Shown here: positions 45,553 to 55,980 of the stretch, in pieces
Layout of the letters: each line of letters begins with the position of its first letter
How positions within the stretch are numbered: the stretch's first letter is position 1
NCBI GenBank assembly: GCA_003250395.1
Contig: QKGM01000001.1
Coordinates: 62,001-126,000 of the forward strand
Reading direction: 5' to 3'
Source: Bacteroidota bacterium
Lineage (GTDB): Bacteria; Bacteroidota; Bacteroidia; Bacteroidales; TTA-H9
Length of the DNA stretch: 64,000 nt
Notes under the pieces: generated by a model
Databases searched by the model: none
Told to the model about the DNA's origin: nothing
The model's input: the letters and a program-made list of their open reading frames with translations, nothing else
Program-made: the position numbers and the translations under genes

Positions 45553-45855
45553 TTATTTCTTTTCGGGTTTCTTGTCCTTTGAGCAGCTAGTACTACCGGC
45601 ACAGCTTTTTGAGCACGAACTTTTTGAACTGCAGCATGATTTGGCATCACCAGATTTAGCCTTATCCTTGCATTCGGTTGTTTTCGCTTTGTTATCGGTT
45701 GCTTTGGCATTTTTTGCTTCTGCTTTGGCAGCCTTTGGAGGATCATCCTTATTAATCGAAATTGAATAGCCATTTGAAGTTGTGGCAAAGCTTACAGTGT
45801 TGAACCCAACAAGTAAGAAAGCTGCTAAAGCGACACTCAGAAATACGTTTTTCAT
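45553..45855 (-). CDS. Small secreted cysteine- and lysine-rich protein
   Basis: 100 residues. Signal peptide of about 24 residues (FLSVALAAFLLVGFNTVSFA), then an Ala/Lys-rich stretch and a C-terminal part with six cysteines in about 35 residues (TECKDK, SCCSS, SSCSKSC, TSCSKDKK). No family recognised; the composition suggests metal binding or disulfide cross-links, similar in flavour to secreted metal-binding peptides. It has its own terminator and -7 box and shares an upstream region with the divergent two-component genes, whose repeat array lies 22 nt from its -7 box. Regulation by that system is a direct prediction. Confidence 0.75.
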   Translation of the reverse strand: MKNVFLSVALAAFLLVGFNTVSFATTSNGYSISINKDDPPKAAKAEAKNAKATDNKAKTTECKDKAKSGDAKSCCSSKSSCSKSCAGSTSCSKDKKPEKK

Positions 45856-48103: not shown

Positions 48104-48799
48104 ATGGCTATACATACAAATAGTGAGAGATGCGAAAACTGTAGGAGCAGGTCTTTCATCTTTGACCTTATCAGCGAGCAGGATAGGGAGATTCTGGACA
48201 AGGCCAAGCAGGAAGTTAGTTTTAATGCAGGTGAGATTATTTTTAAACAGGGGGCCATGTTGACGCATGTAGTATGTGTTACATCAGGCCTCGCTAAGAT
48301 ATACTTTGAAGGTCTTGATAAGAAAAATCTTCTTTTGAGGCTTGTTAAACCTTCTGAACTTGTTGGCGGGCCAGGTATGTTTGTTGATCAGCGACATCAC
48401 TACTCCCTGGGAGCTGTTGAGGATACCCGGGTTTGTTTTATTGATATCGGTTTATACAGGGAACTTGTTTTCAGAAATAAACCGCTGGCACACGAAGTGA
48501 TGGCACGAGAAAGCTACCATAGAATAGAAATGTATGAGAAACTTGTGAACCTTACCCAGAAACAAATGCCCGGTAGGGTCGCAGAAGCGCTGATTTATTT
48601 ATCTACTCAGATATATGAATCGGCGAAATTTCAATGTACCATATCGCGTCAGGAACTTGCAGATCTGACTGCTATGTCGAAGGAGAGTACAATCAGGATT
48701 TTAAAAGATCTGAAAGAAAGTGGTCTGGTTACAATAGAGGGGAATATTGTCGAAATTGTTGATATGAAGGGGCTTGAAGATATCTCTCAGAGAGGTTGA
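48104..48799 (+). CDS. Crp/Fnr-family transcriptional regulator
   Basis: 231 residues. N-terminal cNMP-binding-type domain (ILDKAKQEVSFNAGEIIFKQGAMLTHVVCVTSGLAKIYFEG), dimer helix, and C-terminal HTH_Crp (SRQELADLTAMSKESTIRILKDLKESGLVTIEG). Two cysteines near the N-terminus (C10 and C13 in SERCENCRS) and another near residue 65 recall FNR, but FNR uses four, so a [4Fe-4S] sensor is possible, not certain. The gene stands directly before a cytochrome gene cluster whose upstream region holds FNR-like sites, so it is the obvious regulator of anaerobic electron transport. Confidence 0.88.
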   Translation: MAIHTNSERCENCRSRSFIFDLISEQDREILDKAKQEVSFNAGEIIFKQGAMLTHVVCVTSGLAKIYFEGLDKKNLLLRLVKPSELVGGPGMFVDQRHHYSLGAVEDTRVCFIDIGLYRELVFRNKPLAHEVMARESYHRIEMYEKLVNLTQKQMPGRVAEALIYLSTQIYESAKFQCTISRQELADLTAMSKESTIRILKDLKESGLVTIEGNIVEIVDMKGLEDISQRG

Positions 48800-48818
48800 T
48801 TTTTTTTGAGCTCCTACG

Positions 48819-48832
48819 TTGATATTTGTCAA
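48819..48832. promoter_or_regulatory. FNR/CRP-like box (TTGATATTTGTCAA)
   Basis: Nine of ten half-site bases match TTGAT-N4-ATCAA; the only deviation is G for A at the start of the right half-site. It lies about 135 nt upstream of the hexaheme cytochrome start. Confidence 0.6.
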
Positions 48833-48860
48833 TCAAAATATGTGTTTATGTCAATCAAAA
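48828..48860. repeat. Direct repeat GTCAATCAAAA, 22 bp apart
   Basis: GTCAATCAAAA at 48828-48838 and again at 48850-48860, two helical turns apart on the same face of DNA, overlapping the FNR-like box. Confidence 0.75.
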
Positions 48861-48879
48861 GTTGATGTAAATCATCAAC
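48861..48879. promoter_or_regulatory. 19-bp palindrome GTTGATG-N5-CATCAAC, FNR/CRP-like
   Basis: GTTGATG at 48861-48867 is the exact inverse of CATCAAC at 48873-48879. It combines TTGAT/ATCAA half-sites with a 7-bp rather than 4-bp core. It sits about 88 nt before the cytochrome start codon. Confidence 0.65.
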
Positions 48880-48966
48880 GCATGGTATAAATGTCATATT
48901 TAGAACTGTGCATACATTGAATAAACTCCGTAGGTTTGCATCATCGAAAAACCAATATCCTCACAC

Positions 48967-49998
48967 ATGAAAAAGATACTCTTTGTTTTCGGATTTGCTG
49001 CTTTGGCAGCTATGACTACTGTTAGTTTTACCAGTTGTACAAAAGAAGGCCCCGCAGGGAAAGATGGCGAGGCTGGTATAAATGGTACCGATGGGACAGC
49101 AACATGTATACAGTGCCATGATAACACGGAAGAGCTGTTTGCAAAACAGAATCAATGGGCAGCATCAACTCATGCTATTGGCGGTAACTATGCCCGTAAC
49201 ACTGTGGGTTGTGCTGATTGCCACACCAGCCAGGGTTTCCGTGAAACAGTTGCAACAGGCCTTCCGGTTGCTAATACCATCTCTAACGCCAATCCTATCA
49301 ACTGTTACACCTGTCATGAAATTCACAAGACCTATACTCCGACAGACTGGGCTCTTACAACCGTTGCCCCGGTTACGCTTATGCTTAATGGAGCAACTGT
49401 TGATTTTGGTACAGGTAACCTCTGTGCAAATTGTCATCAGTCTCGTCCGATTGATGCTGCAGTGATGCCGGTAGTCGGAGGCCCGGATATTACTTTAACT
49501 GCTGCCAACAAACGCTATGGATCTCACCATGGTCCTCAGGCCAATATTATTGGTGGTATAGGAACCGGATTGTTTGAAATTGGTGCAGGATACGTGAATT
49601 CAGCACATACCAGCCTTGAAAAGGGTTGTGTGACCTGTCATCTCAGTGAAGGTTATGGTAACCAGGGAGGCGGTCATGTGATGAATGTCAAGTATGGCAC
49701 GAATTATGTTACCTCAGGATGTACAGAAGCAGGTTGTCATGATGCAGCTGCTGTAAAACAAGAAATTCTTGATTATCAGGCTGAAATTCAATCATTACTC
49801 GATCAGATTAAAGTTAAGTTGGTCGAAGCTGGTATAGCCAACGAAGGTGATTTGTATACAAAGCCGGGAACCTATTCAGCAAATGTGGTTGGTGCTTTCT
49901 TAAACCATCAGTCTGTTACTGAAGATAAGAGCCTGGGTGTTCACAATCCCAGATATGTGAAAAAGCTCCTTGAAAACTCATTAGCCGCTCTCAACTAG
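48967..49998 (+). CDS. Hexaheme c-type cytochrome lipoprotein
   Basis: 343 residues. Lipoprotein signal with lipobox FTSC near residue 20, then a collagen-like GPAGKDGEAGINGTDG spacer. Five CXXCH motifs (CIQCH, CADCH, CYTCH, CANCH, CVTCH) and a sixth CX4CH (CTEAGCH). The C-terminal part is helical without heme motifs. The lipid anchor places it in the periplasm or on the outer membrane surface; the collagen-like spacer may extend it from the membrane. It should pass electrons to or from the other cytochromes of this locus. A hairpin terminator follows, so it may be made in greater amount than the downstream genes. Confidence 0.92.
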   Translation: MKKILFVFGFAALAAMTTVSFTSCTKEGPAGKDGEAGINGTDGTATCIQCHDNTEELFAKQNQWAASTHAIGGNYARNTVGCADCHTSQGFRETVATGLPVANTISNANPINCYTCHEIHKTYTPTDWALTTVAPVTLMLNGATVDFGTGNLCANCHQSRPIDAAVMPVVGGPDITLTAANKRYGSHHGPQANIIGGIGTGLFEIGAGYVNSAHTSLEKGCVTCHLSEGYGNQGGGHVMNVKYGTNYVTSGCTEAGCHDAAAVKQEILDYQAEIQSLLDQIKVKLVEAGIANEGDLYTKPGTYSANVVGAFLNHQSVTEDKSLGVHNPRYVKKLLENSLAALN

Positions 49999-50018
49999 TA
50001 GTCTGGCGATGTTCAGAG

Positions 50019-50050
50019 GGAGGCTTCAACAACTGAGGCCTCCTTTTGTT
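50019..50050 (+). terminator. Hairpin terminator after the hexaheme cytochrome
   Basis: GGAGGCTTCA at 50019-50028 pairs with TGAGGCCTCC at 50034-50043 (one wobble) around an ACAAC loop, then TTTTGTTT. Probably partial, given the functional continuity downstream. Confidence 0.8.
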
Positions 50051-50097
50051 TGTAATATGTATTTTTAACAATTTGAATTTCAAAAACATAGAGTCAA

Positions 50098-50472
50098 ATG
50101 ATGAAAAAACGAATTTTTAACCTTATGTCAGCACTCCTTCTGGTTGTCGGATTTACGGCTTGTGAATATGACTGGGTTGAGCCTGAAGTAATTGTTGTAC
50201 CTGATGTAGTCAGTTTCAAAGGAGATGTTATCCCGGTTTTCAATAAGAGTTGTAATATGTCGGGCTGTCATGCACAAGGCTCCACATCGCCAGATTTATC
50301 ATCAGACAATGCATGGGGAGATCTGATGGCAAAAGGTCTGATAAATACGGAAACCCCTGCACAAAGTGAACTCTACATTTCGATATCTACCGGATCGATG
50401 AAGAAGTTTAGCAATGATGCTAATAATGCCCTTATACTGAAATGGATTGAGCAAGGTGCACTGAATAACTAA
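50098..50472 (+). CDS. Small lipoprotein with one CX4CH heme-binding motif
   Basis: 124 residues. Lipobox GFTAC near residue 20. The mature part contains SCNMSGCHAQGS, a CX4CH c-type heme motif, with the following SPDLSSDNAWGDLMAKGLI and SMKKFSNDANNALILKWIEQGA as in the planctomycete-type/cytochrome-c-like DUF domains. A later Met or His could serve as the distal ligand. No adjacent enzyme. It starts 48 nt after the terminator and 30 nt before the beta-barrel gene, so it is probably a lipid-anchored electron relay next to the barrel. Confidence 0.75.
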   Translation: MMKKRIFNLMSALLLVVGFTACEYDWVEPEVIVVPDVVSFKGDVIPVFNKSCNMSGCHAQGSTSPDLSSDNAWGDLMAKGLINTETPAQSELYISISTGSMKKFSNDANNALILKWIEQGALNN

Positions 50473-50502
50473 CTGATTAATTAACAGAAAAAAATTTCAG
50501 AG

Positions 50503-51384
50503 ATGAAGAAGCCTATCCTATATACAATTATCACCCTGATGCTTGCATTAGTTAACACACCAATGGTTAATGCTCAGGATGAACCCGAAACAGAAAGTAA
50601 ACCGGTAAGATCAACCTTTGAAAGTGGTATCCTTATCGACCAGCAGACAAATAATATTCCCACCGCGAATACGCTTGAGTTGCTTATTCAGCATAAGTTT
50701 GGCACTATCCAGAATGGAATTACCGATCTATATGGAATTTATGCTGCTGGTGCCAATGTTCGTATTGGATTTAATTACAGCATACTCGATAACCTGATGG
50801 TTGGCTTTGGTTCTACCAAGAATAAAAAGTTTCAGGATTTTCAGGTGAAATGGAATGTTTTTCCACAGACAAGAGATAACAAATATCCGGTAGCAATTAC
50901 ATTGTATGGAAATATGGCCATTGATGCCAGGGATAAAGAAGTATTCGGAACAGAGTATAACTTTGGGAATCGGTTCAGTTACTTCTCTCAACTGATTATT
51001 ACACGTAGGTTCAATGATTACTTGAGTTTACAAGTTGCTCCCAGTTTTACCCATTTTAATTCAGCTGAGAAAGGAAAGGATCACGATAAGATTGGTTTGT
51101 CAATGGCAGGTCGTGTAAAAGTTAGCCCTCAGTCGTCGTTTCTGCTTCAATGTGACATACCGTTTAAAATTCAGGGCATTGCTGAAAATATGGAGTTTAC
51201 AGATCCTTCTAAGCCAAATTTTGCCTTCGGGTGGGAGATCTCAACTTCGACTCATGCTTTCCAGATATATATGGGTACTGCCAGTGGAATTCTGGGACAG
51301 GAGAACCTTATGAACAATACCAACGATTTCCTAAACGGGGAGATGATGCTCGGTTTTACTATTACCCGTTTGTGGAGTTTTTAA
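50503..51384 (+). CDS. DUF5777-family outer-membrane beta-barrel protein
   Basis: 293 residues with signal peptide ending in NAQ (about residue 24). The mature chain alternates short amphipathic strands typical of a beta-barrel (RSTFESGILIDQQTNN, TLELLIQHKFG, GANVRIGFNYSILDNLMVGFGS, LIITRRFNDYLSLQVAP, FAFGWEISTSTHAFQIYMG) and closes with an aromatic last residue (LWSF), as outer-membrane barrels do. I recognise DUF5777. Its position between heme lipoproteins and soluble and membrane cytochromes suggests a porin-like sheath for electron transfer, analogous to porin-cytochrome complexes (inference). Confidence 0.82.
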   Translation: MKKPILYTIITLMLALVNTPMVNAQDEPETESKPVRSTFESGILIDQQTNNIPTANTLELLIQHKFGTIQNGITDLYGIYAAGANVRIGFNYSILDNLMVGFGSTKNKKFQDFQVKWNVFPQTRDNKYPVAITLYGNMAIDARDKEVFGTEYNFGNRFSYFSQLIITRRFNDYLSLQVAPSFTHFNSAEKGKDHDKIGLSMAGRVKVSPQSSFLLQCDIPFKIQGIAENMEFTDPSKPNFAFGWEISTSTHAFQIYMGTASGILGQENLMNNTNDFLNGEMMLGFTITRLWSF

Positions 51385-51414
51385 TTAATATCTATCAATC
51401 ATAAATTATTTATT

Positions 51415-51837
51415 ATGAAAGCAAAGATGAATTTTTTGTCTATCGCAGCCGTTTCTCTTAGTTTAGTTGTTCTGGTTGCATTTACCCCTCAGGATCAAAA
51501 AAAAGGTGCTGCATGGCAGATACCAGCCAATTATAAAAGCATGAAAAATCCTACCAAAGCCGGAGATGCAGAATCTTTGAAAATTGGTAAGACGCTGTAT
51601 GCCAAGCATTGTAAGGCTTGCCATGGCAACAATGGACAGGGTGATGGTCCCAAAGCAAAACAGCTCAAGACTTTTCCCGGTGACTTTCAGTCAGCTGAGT
51701 TTAAAGCTTATGGTGATGGCCAGCTTTACTATATGTCATTCATCGGACGTGATGAAATGCCAAACTTTGAGAAGAAGATCACAACAGAAGAAGATAGGTG
51801 GGCTCTGGTGAATTATATTCACTCGATGAAGAAGTAA
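51415..51837 (+). CDS. Monoheme cytochrome c
   Basis: 140 residues. Signal peptide to about residue 22, then AWQIPANYKSMKNP and one class I heme site CKACHGNNGQGDGPKA, followed by the helix EDRWALVNYIHSMKK. The Met in GRDEMPNFEK is a likely distal ligand. A small periplasmic electron shuttle in the cytochrome cluster, 30 nt after the beta-barrel gene and 79 nt before the heptaheme cytochrome. Confidence 0.92.
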   Translation: MKAKMNFLSIAAVSLSLVVLVAFTPQDQKKGAAWQIPANYKSMKNPTKAGDAESLKIGKTLYAKHCKACHGNNGQGDGPKAKQLKTFPGDFQSAEFKAYGDGQLYYMSFIGRDEMPNFEKKITTEEDRWALVNYIHSMKK

Positions 51838-51862
51838 TTATCTCCTGATAATTAAAGTGGTC

Positions 51863-51898
51863 ATCAGGCTGTACCTTTTAGGAATACTACAGCCTGAT
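51863..51898 (+). terminator. Long hairpin between two cytochrome genes
   Basis: ATCAGGCTGTA at 51863-51873 pairs perfectly with TACAGCCTGAT at 51888-51898; only a short T-poor tail follows (TATCTTAACT). It may be a weak terminator or an mRNA-stabilising element. Confidence 0.6.
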
Positions 51899-51916
51899 TA
51901 TCTTAACTATTGACAA

Positions 51917-52879
51917 ATGAAAAAAGTTCTAAACCTGATATTGTTTTTAGGCTTCACGTTTTGGTGTTTTGCCCAGGATCATGTGAATTCGGAGAACCGT
52001 ATAGCGAACCGACATTGTCTGGATTGCCATGGACAGAGAGTTTACAGCTTTGTAAATCCGGATGATGGTAGTACGGTCAGGAAGTTAATGCCTGTTGATT
52101 TTAGGGTTGATTCGGCTTTGTTCTATACAGGGGCCCATCATATTTTCAAATGTGTTGATTGTCATGTTCCTGAATATGATTCATTTCCTCATCCTAATCA
52201 ATTACGGTTTGAGCCGATGTATGCCTGTTTGGATTGCCATGGTGGCGATGATACATACGCTAAATACCATTTCGAGACCATAGACGAGCAGTTTCAGAAA
52301 AGTGTCCACAGCCCTGAAACATTGAACGGCTTCACCTGTTGGAACTGTCATGATCCTCATAGCTTCAGAATTAATCAACGGACGGGTGAAAGTATTGCCA
52401 ATACAATTGCCTATGATAACGCTGTTTGTATGAAATGTCATTTTGAAACTGGTTCAGAAGTGATGTTGTTATTGGCCAATGAAAAGCTGAAACCAATGTC
52501 TGTATCTCATGATTGGTTGCCTAATCAGGAACTTCATTTCAGGCAGGTAAGATGTATTGAATGCCATGCTGCAATGCACGATTCTCTTTTGGTTGCACAC
52601 CTTGTAAGCCCGGCCGATAGCGCAGTTAAGCAATGTAAGGAATGCCATAGTCGCAACACGATGTTGTTATCAAGTTGGTATCGTTTTCAGAATATTGAGA
52701 ACCGTAATAAAAATGGATTCGTGAATGGTGTATTGCTTAACGAAGCGTATGTAATTGGCGCCAGCCGAAATGAAATTCTTAATATTTTAAGTCTGATCCT
52801 TTTTGGACTGACATTGGGCGGAATTTTAGTACATGCATTGTTCAGATTGAAAATGAATAAAAGAAAAAGACATGAGTGA
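51917..52879 (+). CDS. Heptaheme c-type cytochrome with C-terminal TM anchor
   Basis: 320 residues. Signal peptide (to about residue 20), seven CXXCH motifs (CLDCH, CVDCH, CLDCH, CWNCH, CMKCH, CIECH, CKECH), and a C-terminal TM helix (ILNILSLILFGLTLGGILVHALF) with a basic cytoplasmic tail. The globular hemes thus face the periplasm while the anchor holds it to the inner membrane. It overlaps the b-type cytochrome gene by 8 nt, indicating a fixed complex that receives electrons from quinol through cytochrome b and hands them to the soluble cytochromes. The family overlaps with cytochrome c3-like and NrfH/NapC-type donors by role, not by fold. Confidence 0.9.
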   Translation: MKKVLNLILFLGFTFWCFAQDHVNSENRIANRHCLDCHGQRVYSFVNPDDGSTVRKLMPVDFRVDSALFYTGAHHIFKCVDCHVPEYDSFPHPNQLRFEPMYACLDCHGGDDTYAKYHFETIDEQFQKSVHSPETLNGFTCWNCHDPHSFRINQRTGESIANTIAYDNAVCMKCHFETGSEVMLLLANEKLKPMSVSHDWLPNQELHFRQVRCIECHAAMHDSLLVAHLVSPADSAVKQCKECHSRNTMLLSSWYRFQNIENRNKNGFVNGVLLNEAYVIGASRNEILNILSLILFGLTLGGILVHALFRLKMNKRKRHE

Positions 52880-53489
52880 GAAGCTTTATTTATACCCTTT
52901 ATGGCTTAGGTTGTGGCATGGGCTCAATGCCTTGTTTTTTTTAACTCTTCTGGTAACAGGCATTAGTATGCAATATTCAGACATTGATTTTCCTCTGGTT
53001 CGATTTGACCTTGCAGTTACCGGCCATAATATCGCAGGGATAGGGATAACATTAAGTTATTTTATGTTTATAACCGGGAATTTGTTTACGTCTAATGGGC
53101 GCCAATACAGGATAAATATTCGGAGCTTGTTTTCTGATTTATTAGCCCAGGGTCGTTATTACCTTTTTGGGATTTTTTCAAAACAGATACCTCCATTTCC
53201 GGTTACGTTGAAATCAAAGTTTAATCCCCTGCAACGAGTCAGTTATATCGGAGCTATGTATGTTTTATTTCCAATTGTAGCTATTACCGGATGGGCATTA
53301 TTGTTTCCTGAAACAATTGCCCGACAGGCATTTGGATATAGTGGAACTTTGCTGACGGCTTTGCTTCACATCGTGATGGGCTTCTTTATGTCAATTTTTA
53401 TGATTGTTCATGTATACATGTGTACTGTTGGGAAAACACCTCTCAGTAATTTCAAGAGTATGATAAACGGTTATCACGAAGCACATTAA
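52872..53489 (+). CDS. b-type cytochrome, cyt b561/Ni-Fe hydrogenase B-like membrane subunit
   Basis: 205 residues with four TM helices. Likely heme ligands: His16 in LWHGLNALFF, His in VTGHNIAG, and His in ALLHIVMG and MIVHVYM. It opens PLWLRLWHG as in b561-family di-heme proteins that accept electrons from quinol. Overlapping with the heptaheme cytochrome by 8 nt, it is the probable quinol dehydrogenase of the cluster. A terminator follows. Confidence 0.9.
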   Translation: MSEKLYLYPLWLRLWHGLNALFFLTLLVTGISMQYSDIDFPLVRFDLAVTGHNIAGIGITLSYFMFITGNLFTSNGRQYRINIRSLFSDLLAQGRYYLFGIFSKQIPPFPVTLKSKFNPLQRVSYIGAMYVLFPIVAITGWALLFPETIARQAFGYSGTLLTALLHIVMGFFMSIFMIVHVYMCTVGKTPLSNFKSMINGYHEAH

Positions 53490-53673: not shown

Positions 53674-55980
53674 ATGAAACAATTCTCAATTCTGATGATG
53701 CTGCTTGTTATTTTAGGCAGTTATATTGCTGATGCTCAGAATGCCAGCGTACGAGGTTTCGTTTATGAAAAAGAGACAGGTGAACCTGTTATTTTCACGA
53801 ATGTATATCTCTATAAAACATCTCATGGGGCATCTACCGATGTTAATGGTTATTATTCAATTACCCAGATACCTGCCGGTAAATATGAACTGATGGTAAC
53901 CTCAATGGGATATGACTCTATCAGAATGCCAATTACGCTAAAGAAAGGGGAAATACTTACGAAACAGATTTTCCTGTCCAAAGCATCCTATATGTTGGAA
54001 GTAGTTAATGTAAGTGCTTCTAAGGAGGAAGCCCAAACACAGACACGCACCTCCATTGCCAAGATTACTCCCAAGGAAATGAGGCAGATTCCTACCGTTG
54101 GCGGGCAGGCTGATCTAGCGCAGTATCTTCAGGTGTTACCAGGAGTTATTTTTACTGGCGATCAGGGAGGACAATTGTATATCCGAGGTGGTTCTCCTAT
54201 TCAGAATAAAGTACTATTAGATGGTATGATTGTTTATAATCCGTTTCATTCAATCGGGTTATTCTCTGTTTTTGACACTGATCTGATGAGAAATGCCGAT
54301 GTGTATACGGGTGGTTTTAATGCTGATTTTGGTGGTCGTATCTCGTCAGTTATGGACATAACTACTCGTGATGGAAATAAAAAACGTCTTGCTGGTAAGA
54401 TTGAGGCCAGCACTTTTGGGGCCAAAGTTCTTCTTGAAGGACCTCTAAAGAAACAGCCTGATGCAGGAGGTTCCAGCTCTTCTTTTGTCCTTTCGATTAA
54501 AAATTCTTATCTCGAGGAGACCTCGAAATCGTTGTATAAGTACGTGAATGATGATGGTCTCCCTTTTAACTTCCTGGATATATATGGCAAGGTTTCTTTT
54601 AATGGACAGAATGGCTCAAAATTTAACCTGTTCGGATTCAGTTTCTCTGATAAAGTTAATAACTACCAGAGCCTTAGTGATTTTAGTTGGGATGCCTTTG
54701 GGGGTGGTGCTAACTTTGTTGTTATACCGGGCAGGTCGCCTGTTCTGCTTGAGGGAAATATCGCGTTCTCAAGCTATAAAGCCAATATGGCAGAAATTGA
54801 TGCCAAGGACAGAACAAGCAAAATCTCTGGTTTTAATGCCGGATTGCAGTTCACCTATTTTATGGGTAAAGATGAACTGAAGTATGGTGTTGAATTACTT
54901 GGATTCAAAACGAATTATTTGTTTTTCAATAGTTATAATAATAAGATCCAACAAGAAGAAAATACAACGGAACTGGCAGGCTATCTTAAATACAAACTTA
55001 CAGCAGGACCAGTCCTTATTGAGCCGGGAATCCGTCTTCAGTGGTATGCATCTTTAAGCGAGCTTTCGTTTGAGCCCCGAATCGCTGCAAAGTATAATAT
55101 TACTGACAGAATCAGGATCAAAGCCGCAGCTGGCCTCTACAGTCAGAATCTGATAAGTGCCAATTCTGATCGTGATGTCGTAAATCTTTTTTATGGTTTC
55201 CTTTCAGGACCTGATAACCTTCCCGATGAATTCGATGGGCAAGAAGTAACTTCCAAATTGCAGAAAGCCCAGCACCTGGTTGGAGGTATAGAGTTCGACC
55301 TCACTAAACATGTCGTGTTGAATGTAGAAGGTTATTACAAGAATTTCAATCAGCTGACGAACCTCAACAGAAGCAAGATATTCGATGATACCGAGGAGAA
55401 TTCATCACGCCCGGATGAATTGAAAAAAGATTTCGTAGTAGAAAGCGGAACAGCGAAAGGGCTTGATATTTCACTAAAATATGAATTTAATCGTTTCTAT
55501 CTGTGGGGAGCATATTCTCTTGCTTGGGTTGATCGTTTTAATGGTACAGAGACCTATTACCCTCACTATGACAGACGTCATAATGTAAATTTAGTTTCTT
55601 CGGTTAAATTGGGTCCGGCAATGGATTGGGAAATCAGTGCGAGATGGAACTATGGCTCTGGATTTCCGTTTACCGAGAATCAGGGGTTTTTCGAGAATAT
55701 TACATTTGTCGGACTTTCGCAATATGATCCATCACAGATTAATGGTTCAATGGGAATTATATATGGATCAACGAATAATGGTCGTTTGAGTGACTACCAT
55801 CGTTTAGATATCAATGTTAAGAAGAAATTTGAATTGGGGAAATATAGCGAGCTTGAGCTTAATGCAGGTGTTACTAATGTATATGACCGAAAGAATGTAT
55901 TCTACAGGAATAGAATATCGGGAGATGTGGTCAATCAATTACCTGCTATGGCAATGTTTGGAGCGAGTTTGACATTTTAA
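53674..55980 (+). CDS. TonB-dependent outer-membrane receptor with CarboxypepD_reg-like domain
   Basis: 768 residues. Signal peptide ending DAQN (about residue 22), an N-terminal regulatory domain (SVRGFVYEKETGEPVIFTNVYL to about 105), plug with the TonB-box-like region and ADLAQYLQVLPGV, IRGGSPIQNKVLLDG, DVYTGGFNADFGGRISSVMD, and a beta-barrel ending in a Phe (GASLTF). The N-terminal domain is the CarboxypepD_reg-like type common in Bacteroidota receptors. It is not a SusC (no SusC-specific N-terminus and no SusD partner gene). Substrate unknown; an iron chelate, peptide or sugar is possible. Monocistronic. Confidence 0.93.
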   Translation: MKQFSILMMLLVILGSYIADAQNASVRGFVYEKETGEPVIFTNVYLYKTSHGASTDVNGYYSITQIPAGKYELMVTSMGYDSIRMPITLKKGEILTKQIFLSKASYMLEVVNVSASKEEAQTQTRTSIAKITPKEMRQIPTVGGQADLAQYLQVLPGVIFTGDQGGQLYIRGGSPIQNKVLLDGMIVYNPFHSIGLFSVFDTDLMRNADVYTGGFNADFGGRISSVMDITTRDGNKKRLAGKIEASTFGAKVLLEGPLKKQPDAGGSSSSFVLSIKNSYLEETSKSLYKYVNDDGLPFNFLDIYGKVSFNGQNGSKFNLFGFSFSDKVNNYQSLSDFSWDAFGGGANFVVIPGRSPVLLEGNIAFSSYKANMAEIDAKDRTSKISGFNAGLQFTYFMGKDELKYGVELLGFKTNYLFFNSYNNKIQQEENTTELAGYLKYKLTAGPVLIEPGIRLQWYASLSELSFEPRIAAKYNITDRIRIKAAAGLYSQNLISANSDRDVVNLFYGFLSGPDNLPDEFDGQEVTSKLQKAQHLVGGIEFDLTKHVVLNVEGYYKNFNQLTNLNRSKIFDDTEENSSRPDELKKDFVVESGTAKGLDISLKYEFNRFYLWGAYSLAWVDRFNGTETYYPHYDRRHNVNLVSSVKLGPAMDWEISARWNYGSGFPFTENQGFFENITFVGLSQYDPSQINGSMGIIYGSTNNGRLSDYHRLDINVKKKFELGKYSELELNAGVTNVYDRKNVFYRNRISGDVVNQLPAMAMFGASLTF

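Follow-up and report, generated by a model that had tools for sequence, protein, structure and literature searches.

The seven genes at positions 48104 to 53489 of the window, by which we mean the whole stretch of 64,000 nucleotides of Bacteroidota DNA analyzed here, belong to a conserved respiratory electron-transfer module established by genomics, and probably (we put the probability at about 0.6) encode a respiratory chain that exports electrons to the cell surface in anaerobic Bacteroidales, a reading in which we infer the direction of flow, the exposure of the hexaheme lipoprotein P2 and the crossing of the outer membrane at the barrel P4. The parts of the block, their conservation, the invariant candidate heme ligands and the pairing of P6 with P7 come directly from the computation. 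On the best reading the module would be a novel form of porin-cytochrome export, similar to a Cyc2 divided into two proteins, with an outer-membrane step that stands as a proposal. The block consists of the following genes:

48104 to 48799, + strand: Crp/Fnr-family regulator (Pfam HTH_Crp_2 and cNMP_binding)
48967 to 49998, + strand: P2, hexaheme c-type lipoprotein with five CXXCH, one CX4CH and six further invariant His (AlphaFold2 model, pLDDT 86.5)
50098 to 50472, + strand: P3, monoheme CX4CH lipoprotein, LIC11213-like (NF047812, E = 1e-8, under the cut-off of that model)
50503 to 51384, + strand: P4, DUF5777 outer-membrane beta-barrel (PF19089, 245.8 bits; 12 strands in the AlphaFold2 model)
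51415 to 51837, + strand: P5, exported class I monoheme cytochrome c with one CXXCH and an MP ligand (PF00034, E = 1e-13)
51917 to 52879, + strand: P6, periplasmic heptaheme cytochrome c with seven CXXCH and a C-terminal transmembrane anchor (residues 287-305)
52872 to 53489, + strand: P7, diheme cytochrome b561-type membrane subunit, predicted to oxidize quinol (PF01292, E = 5e-24; PRK15006, E = 2e-51, under cut-off)

A check of the open reading frames together with Pfam matches (Crp/Fnr, DUF5777, cytochrome c and cytochrome b561) agrees with the initial annotation on all seven genes, their coordinates and their common strand, and its claim of at least 15 c-type heme sites corresponds to a count of 15 (six in P2, one each in P3 and P5, and seven in P6). 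The two heme lipoproteins, which it had described as flanking the barrel, are both encoded upstream of the barrel gene. From P2 to P7 the intergenic gaps are 99, 30, 30, 79 and -8 bp, the last being an overlap of the P6 and P7 genes, and this spacing is operon-like. The host genome comprises 2.98 Mb and is 76% complete.

When 60 relatives were searched for the barrel, an A type, similar to that of the window, could be told apart from a B type that is about 28% identical, and each type has its own gene neighborhood. A scan that took a single genome for each species turned up 195 related stretches, and 80 of these were read. Conservation of the gene order had been named from the start as a check on the proposal, and in 67 of the 80 homologous Bacteroidales loci P3-P4-(P5)-P6-P7 are co-directional and follow in this order, so the block is not due to chance; P2 is found at one end of the conserved block as well in 63 of the 80. 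With small variations, the A-type block P2-P3-P4-P5-P6-P7 spans about 15 families of Bacteroidales. The closest named relative found is Bacteroidetes bacterium GWE2_42_24, whose barrel is 95% identical, and the loci include the cultured hosts Carboxylicivirga sediminis, C. mesophila, C. linearis, Mariniphaga sediminis, Sunxiuqinia elliptica and Tangfeifania diversioriginum. We are not aware of respiration with metals or electrodes in any of these cultured hosts, which counts against the export reading.

The regulator gene occurs in 55 of the 80 loci, frequently divergent from the block, and C10xxC13, C58 and C111 of its product are conserved in 82-96% of 71 sequences. Resembling the Cys set of FNR, these four residues might coordinate an iron-sulfur cluster and allow the regulator to sense oxygen or the redox state. 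Other neighbors are rarely shared: the gene for a TonB-dependent receptor at 53674-55980 is present in only 2 of the 80 loci and was dropped as a member of the system, and the two-component pair located upstream, found in 3 of 80, was rejected as a core member. Upstream of this pair, positions 45553-45855 of the window encode a small exported Cys-rich protein (CSSKSSCSKSCAGSTSCSKDKK), whose position is shared by two loci of the same genus.

On the inner-membrane side, the seven CXXCH motifs of P6 and seven other periplasmic His (H74, H92, H131, H148, H198, H207 and H228) are invariant in 75 sequences, and P7 contains the invariant residues H16, H52, H166 and H180, a set suited to two b hemes. 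The two proteins combine a membrane-anchored multiheme cytochrome c with a HydC/FdnI-like diheme cytochrome b, as is also the case for CbcL and CbcBA of Geobacter, and besides being encoded by adjacent, overlapping genes, they correspond to one fused protein in a locus from outside the class (L132). Homologs of P6 outside the class carry 7 or 13 hemes and are located beside P7. P6-P7 resemble a split quinol dehydrogenase of the CbcL/CbcBA type, although, unlike CbcL, they are separate genes and are likened to the Geobacter proteins by architecture, not by sequence. As no ImcH was found in the window's own genome, quinol oxidation for this chain would fall to P6-P7 there. In P5, the residues C66, C69, H70, M115 and P116 are invariant in 90 sequences.

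In the clusters of relatives, other quinol-oxidizing candidates appear. ImcH has been described as a protein of about 500 amino acids with N-terminal transmembrane helices, a CX3CH next to the membrane part and several CXXCH (PMC6295460), and ImcH-like proteins of 500 amino acids, with a CX3CH followed by six CXXCH, are encoded in these clusters, one of them (L027:12668-14167) also showing an NNT domain. The clusters also encode NrfC/NrfD-like pairs and CbcL-like proteins that carry 19 hemes and end in a cytochrome b. Strong ImcH matches occur in 10 of the 60 relatives, and all 10 fall within the 18 that possess an A-type barrel, one of these barrels being partial (Fisher p = 6e-7, a value that ignores kinship).

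P2 is predicted to be the terminal cytochrome at the cell surface, a placement drawn from its lipobox-like signal and from a Gly-rich stalk, the collagen-like Gly-x-x stretch that follows the lipobox. All six heme motifs are invariant in 14 diverse sequences, as are exactly six His outside the motifs (H69, H120, H187, H214, H237 and H326). When the AlphaFold2 model was searched with Foldseek, OcwA (E = 1.4e-4) and OmhA (1e-3), two surface cytochromes that serve extracellular electron transfer, were found ahead of NrfA (at least 1e-2), and Z scores from VIA-align were tied (14.1 OcwA, 13.7 OmhA, 13.2 NrfA). The alignment with OcwA extends over 239 residues with an rmsd of 4.0, and the NrfA-like heme core with a C-terminal three-helix bundle is shared with OcwA from Thermincola and OmhA from Carboxydothermus; unlike these, P2 is a Gram-negative lipoprotein with 6 hemes, not 9 or 11, and with one invariant non-motif His per heme. 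That the hexaheme protein may itself be the reductase, as the initial annotation had suggested, would rather mean an OcwA-like terminal reductase, which fits better than a small-molecule enzyme because there is one such His for each heme, and P2 as NrfA or another small-molecule reductase is disfavored on the same grounds. The invariant His of P2, P6 and P7 would fit electron transfer rather than catalysis. For P2 the ligand argument calls for caution by analogy, as OcwA has open heme sites though its sequence holds enough His for all nine hemes (PMC6703420).

The barrel P4 belongs to DUF5777 by its match to PF19089 (245.8 bits against a curated cut-off of 23.1; E = 5e-73). Its AlphaFold2 model (pLDDT 88.6) has 12 strands and matches the 12-stranded barrels FapF, KdgM, NanC and NalP at Z 17-18; a search of PDB sequences with P4 gave no match. 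From standard barrel geometry, the backbone radius is about 11-12 Angstrom for the 12-stranded P4, as compared with about 23 for a 26-stranded barrel. As modeled, P4 has too little room inside for a cytochrome domain, and unless P3 inserts, the distance between hemes docked at its two mouths would not permit fast tunneling.

P3 has a CX4CH motif in the window and CXXCH in most relatives. The distal position is occupied by Met in all 21 CX4CH forms and by His in 63 of 66 CXXCH forms, and a Met distal ligand is predicted for P3 of the window. Among P3 and its homologs in L031-L122, the ligand type switches several times on the barrel tree, at least four of them on well-supported branches. The coupled change of motif and ligand has the appearance of a single site being tuned in its redox potential, a possible natural experiment. 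An attempt to find a fusion of P3 with DUF5777 via one long open frame (L022) yielded a plain DUF5777 protein.

DUF5777, which is not named in the literature searched, is present in 259 of the 295 Bacteroidia genomes sampled. B-type loci contain a co-directional heme protein in 19 of 20 cases and a YceI gene in 17 of 20, suggesting that the family is a general partner of small cytochromes and the type in the window one specialization. As the usual company of DUF5777 proteins is YceI and small cytochromes, with no multiheme chain, the barrel family as a whole is not confined to electron export. A second DUF5777 gene of the window's own genome lies in an operon on another contig (C8; L041:8392-11411) with genes for YceI, a small tRNA_anti-like protein, a monoheme cytochrome c and a diheme PSCyt1-like lipoprotein, an arrangement common across Bacteroidia.

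Homologs of P2 in another class are accompanied by different barrel units. Directly after them, in four places, comes a gene for a fused monoheme-barrel protein, which is Cyc2-like and has no Pfam match:

L134:11568-12839: fused monoheme-barrel protein
L158:8011-9234: fused monoheme-barrel protein
L157:11614-12870: fused monoheme-barrel protein
L157:15309-16553: fused monoheme-barrel protein

In these proteins of about 410-430 amino acids, a single CXXCH at the N-terminal end precedes a region that is barrel-like, as judged from sequence only, and neighboring genes encode a Rieske-like protein and in some cases a monoheme cytochrome c. No homology between DUF5777 and the fused barrel was detected, and a search of PDB sequences with a fused protein gave no match. 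At four further loci (L164, L166, L169 and L171), P2 is found with a putative porin of about 430 amino acids, cytochromes of 12-14 and 7-9 hemes, and ImcH- or NrfD-like genes. One P2 family thus goes with three different barrel units, as would be expected if the pair of P3 and DUF5777 carries out the outer-membrane step.

In the chain that we propose, P7 would oxidize menaquinol in the inner membrane and pass electrons to the seven hemes of P6, the small soluble P5 would ferry them across the periplasm, and P3 and P4 would form the outer-membrane unit, in which P3 sits at the opening of the 12-stranded barrel or closes it, in the manner thought to apply to the heme domain of Cyc2. From P3 the electrons would be handed to P2 on its Gly-rich stalk, which would act as terminal reductase for an extracellular acceptor such as Fe(III) or Mn(IV) minerals, humics, an electrode or a partner cell. 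A more far-reaching claim, which we advance only tentatively and which is rather doubtful, is that P3 and DUF5777 form a previously unrecognized minimal outer-membrane electron conduit, a one-heme lipoprotein with a 12-stranded barrel and functionally a split Cyc2, that occurs throughout Bacteroidia and that one lineage has connected with a quinol dehydrogenase and with a hexaheme protein at the surface for extracellular respiration.

Electron export might also be real while DUF5777 serves as a translocator or anchor that takes P3 or P2 to the surface, electrons reaching P2 by another way. The presence of 12-stranded secretion barrels, FapF and autotransporters, among the top matches of P4 and the almost constant pairing of DUF5777 with heme proteins, as for a dedicated exporter, are in line with this view; however, the solute porins KdgM and NanC match equally well, and the fusion of a heme domain to a barrel at the same position in another class suggests a lasting physical coupling, so that we regard a translocator as unlikely. 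The resemblance of the predicted barrel to solute porins would instead suit a chain that reduces a soluble acceptor, in which P2 belongs to the small-molecule reductases of the NrfA superfamily and substrate enters through DUF5777 as a porin, a scheme also compatible with the fold and three-helix C-terminal bundle that P2 shares with NrfA and octaheme reductases, with its match to PF02335 (E = 1e-4) and with the resemblance of P7 to the cytochrome b of thiosulfate reductase. However, P2 lacks the CXXCK catalytic heme of pentaheme NrfA, all six of its motifs ending in CH, and with six invariant non-motif His for six hemes an open site is not expected, whereas the clusters of relatives contain ImcH- and CbcL-like proteins and putative porin-cytochrome units; this scheme, too, appears improbable.

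Least probable, in our estimation, is that the chain runs inward, from an extracellular donor such as Fe(II), Fe(0) or a partner cell to quinone. Complexes of the CbcL/MtoC type (PMC6295460) and CbcBA (PMC10553843) are thought to be bidirectional, Cyc2, the closest analog of P3 and P4, is an Fe(II) oxidase (PMC8406198), and Prolixibacter MIC1-1 takes electrons from iron (PMC4767289), but ImcH, the quinol oxidase associated with the block in relatives, has been reported only from Fe(III) reducers (PMC6295460).

If electrons are exported by this chain, the module bears on the occurrence of Bacteroidales on anodes and in metal-reducing sediments, for which the literature searched assigns them no outer-membrane conduit. 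Standard searches with MtrB, OmbB or ExtB models (as in PMC7399161) would miss it. Reduction of both Fe(III) and Mn(IV), by a route left unassigned, has been described for Labilibaculum, a member of Marinifilaceae (PMC9765461). The module gives DUF5777 a testable function, and cultured hosts exist in Carboxylicivirga, Mariniphaga, Sunxiuqinia and Tangfeifania.

Compared with MtrCAB and Pcc systems, the block shares a barrel gene beside heme lipoproteins and an inner-membrane quinol dehydrogenase, and it differs in its small barrel, MtrB being 26-stranded, in the lack of a filler cytochrome similar to MtrA or OmaB (the block contains no gene for a decaheme MtrA-type cytochrome) and in its protein families. 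That the families differ from MtrCAB had been stated from the outset and is borne out by the 12 strands predicted for P4 and by a search for the MtrB/PioB-family barrel (PF11854), which found none over the cut-off in 60 genomes, the window's own included. Of the original porin-cytochrome reading, the electron path that leads from quinol up to a multiheme lipoprotein and the relation to extracellular electron transfer gain support from the conservation, the P2 fold, the ImcH- and CbcL-like neighbors in relatives and the swapping of barrel units, whereas a barrel sheathing a cytochrome as in MtrAB, and with it a strict Mtr/Pcc mechanism, is not supported, because the 12-stranded barrel is predicted to be too narrow. 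The uncharacterized Bacteroidetes_1 cluster of an anode-enriched Bacteroidetes MAG, for which a role in extracellular electron transfer has been proposed (PMC8258643), comprises seven genes, six for multiheme cytochromes and one for a barrel; it is similar in gene content as described, and is likened here by this description only. With Cyc2 the module shares one heme coupled to a small barrel, the fused form occupying the same position in another class, and unlike Cyc2, P3 and P4 are separate ORFs, the barrel has 12 strands instead of 16, and the motif AXPXFAR[Q/K][T/Y], which in Cyc2 stands upstream of the heme (PMC8406198), is absent from P3, on reading, as is its exact form from the fused proteins found in the other class. 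On the features compared, the best reading is that the module works like a porin-cytochrome conduit, yet is a member of neither the MtrCAB nor the Cyc2 family.
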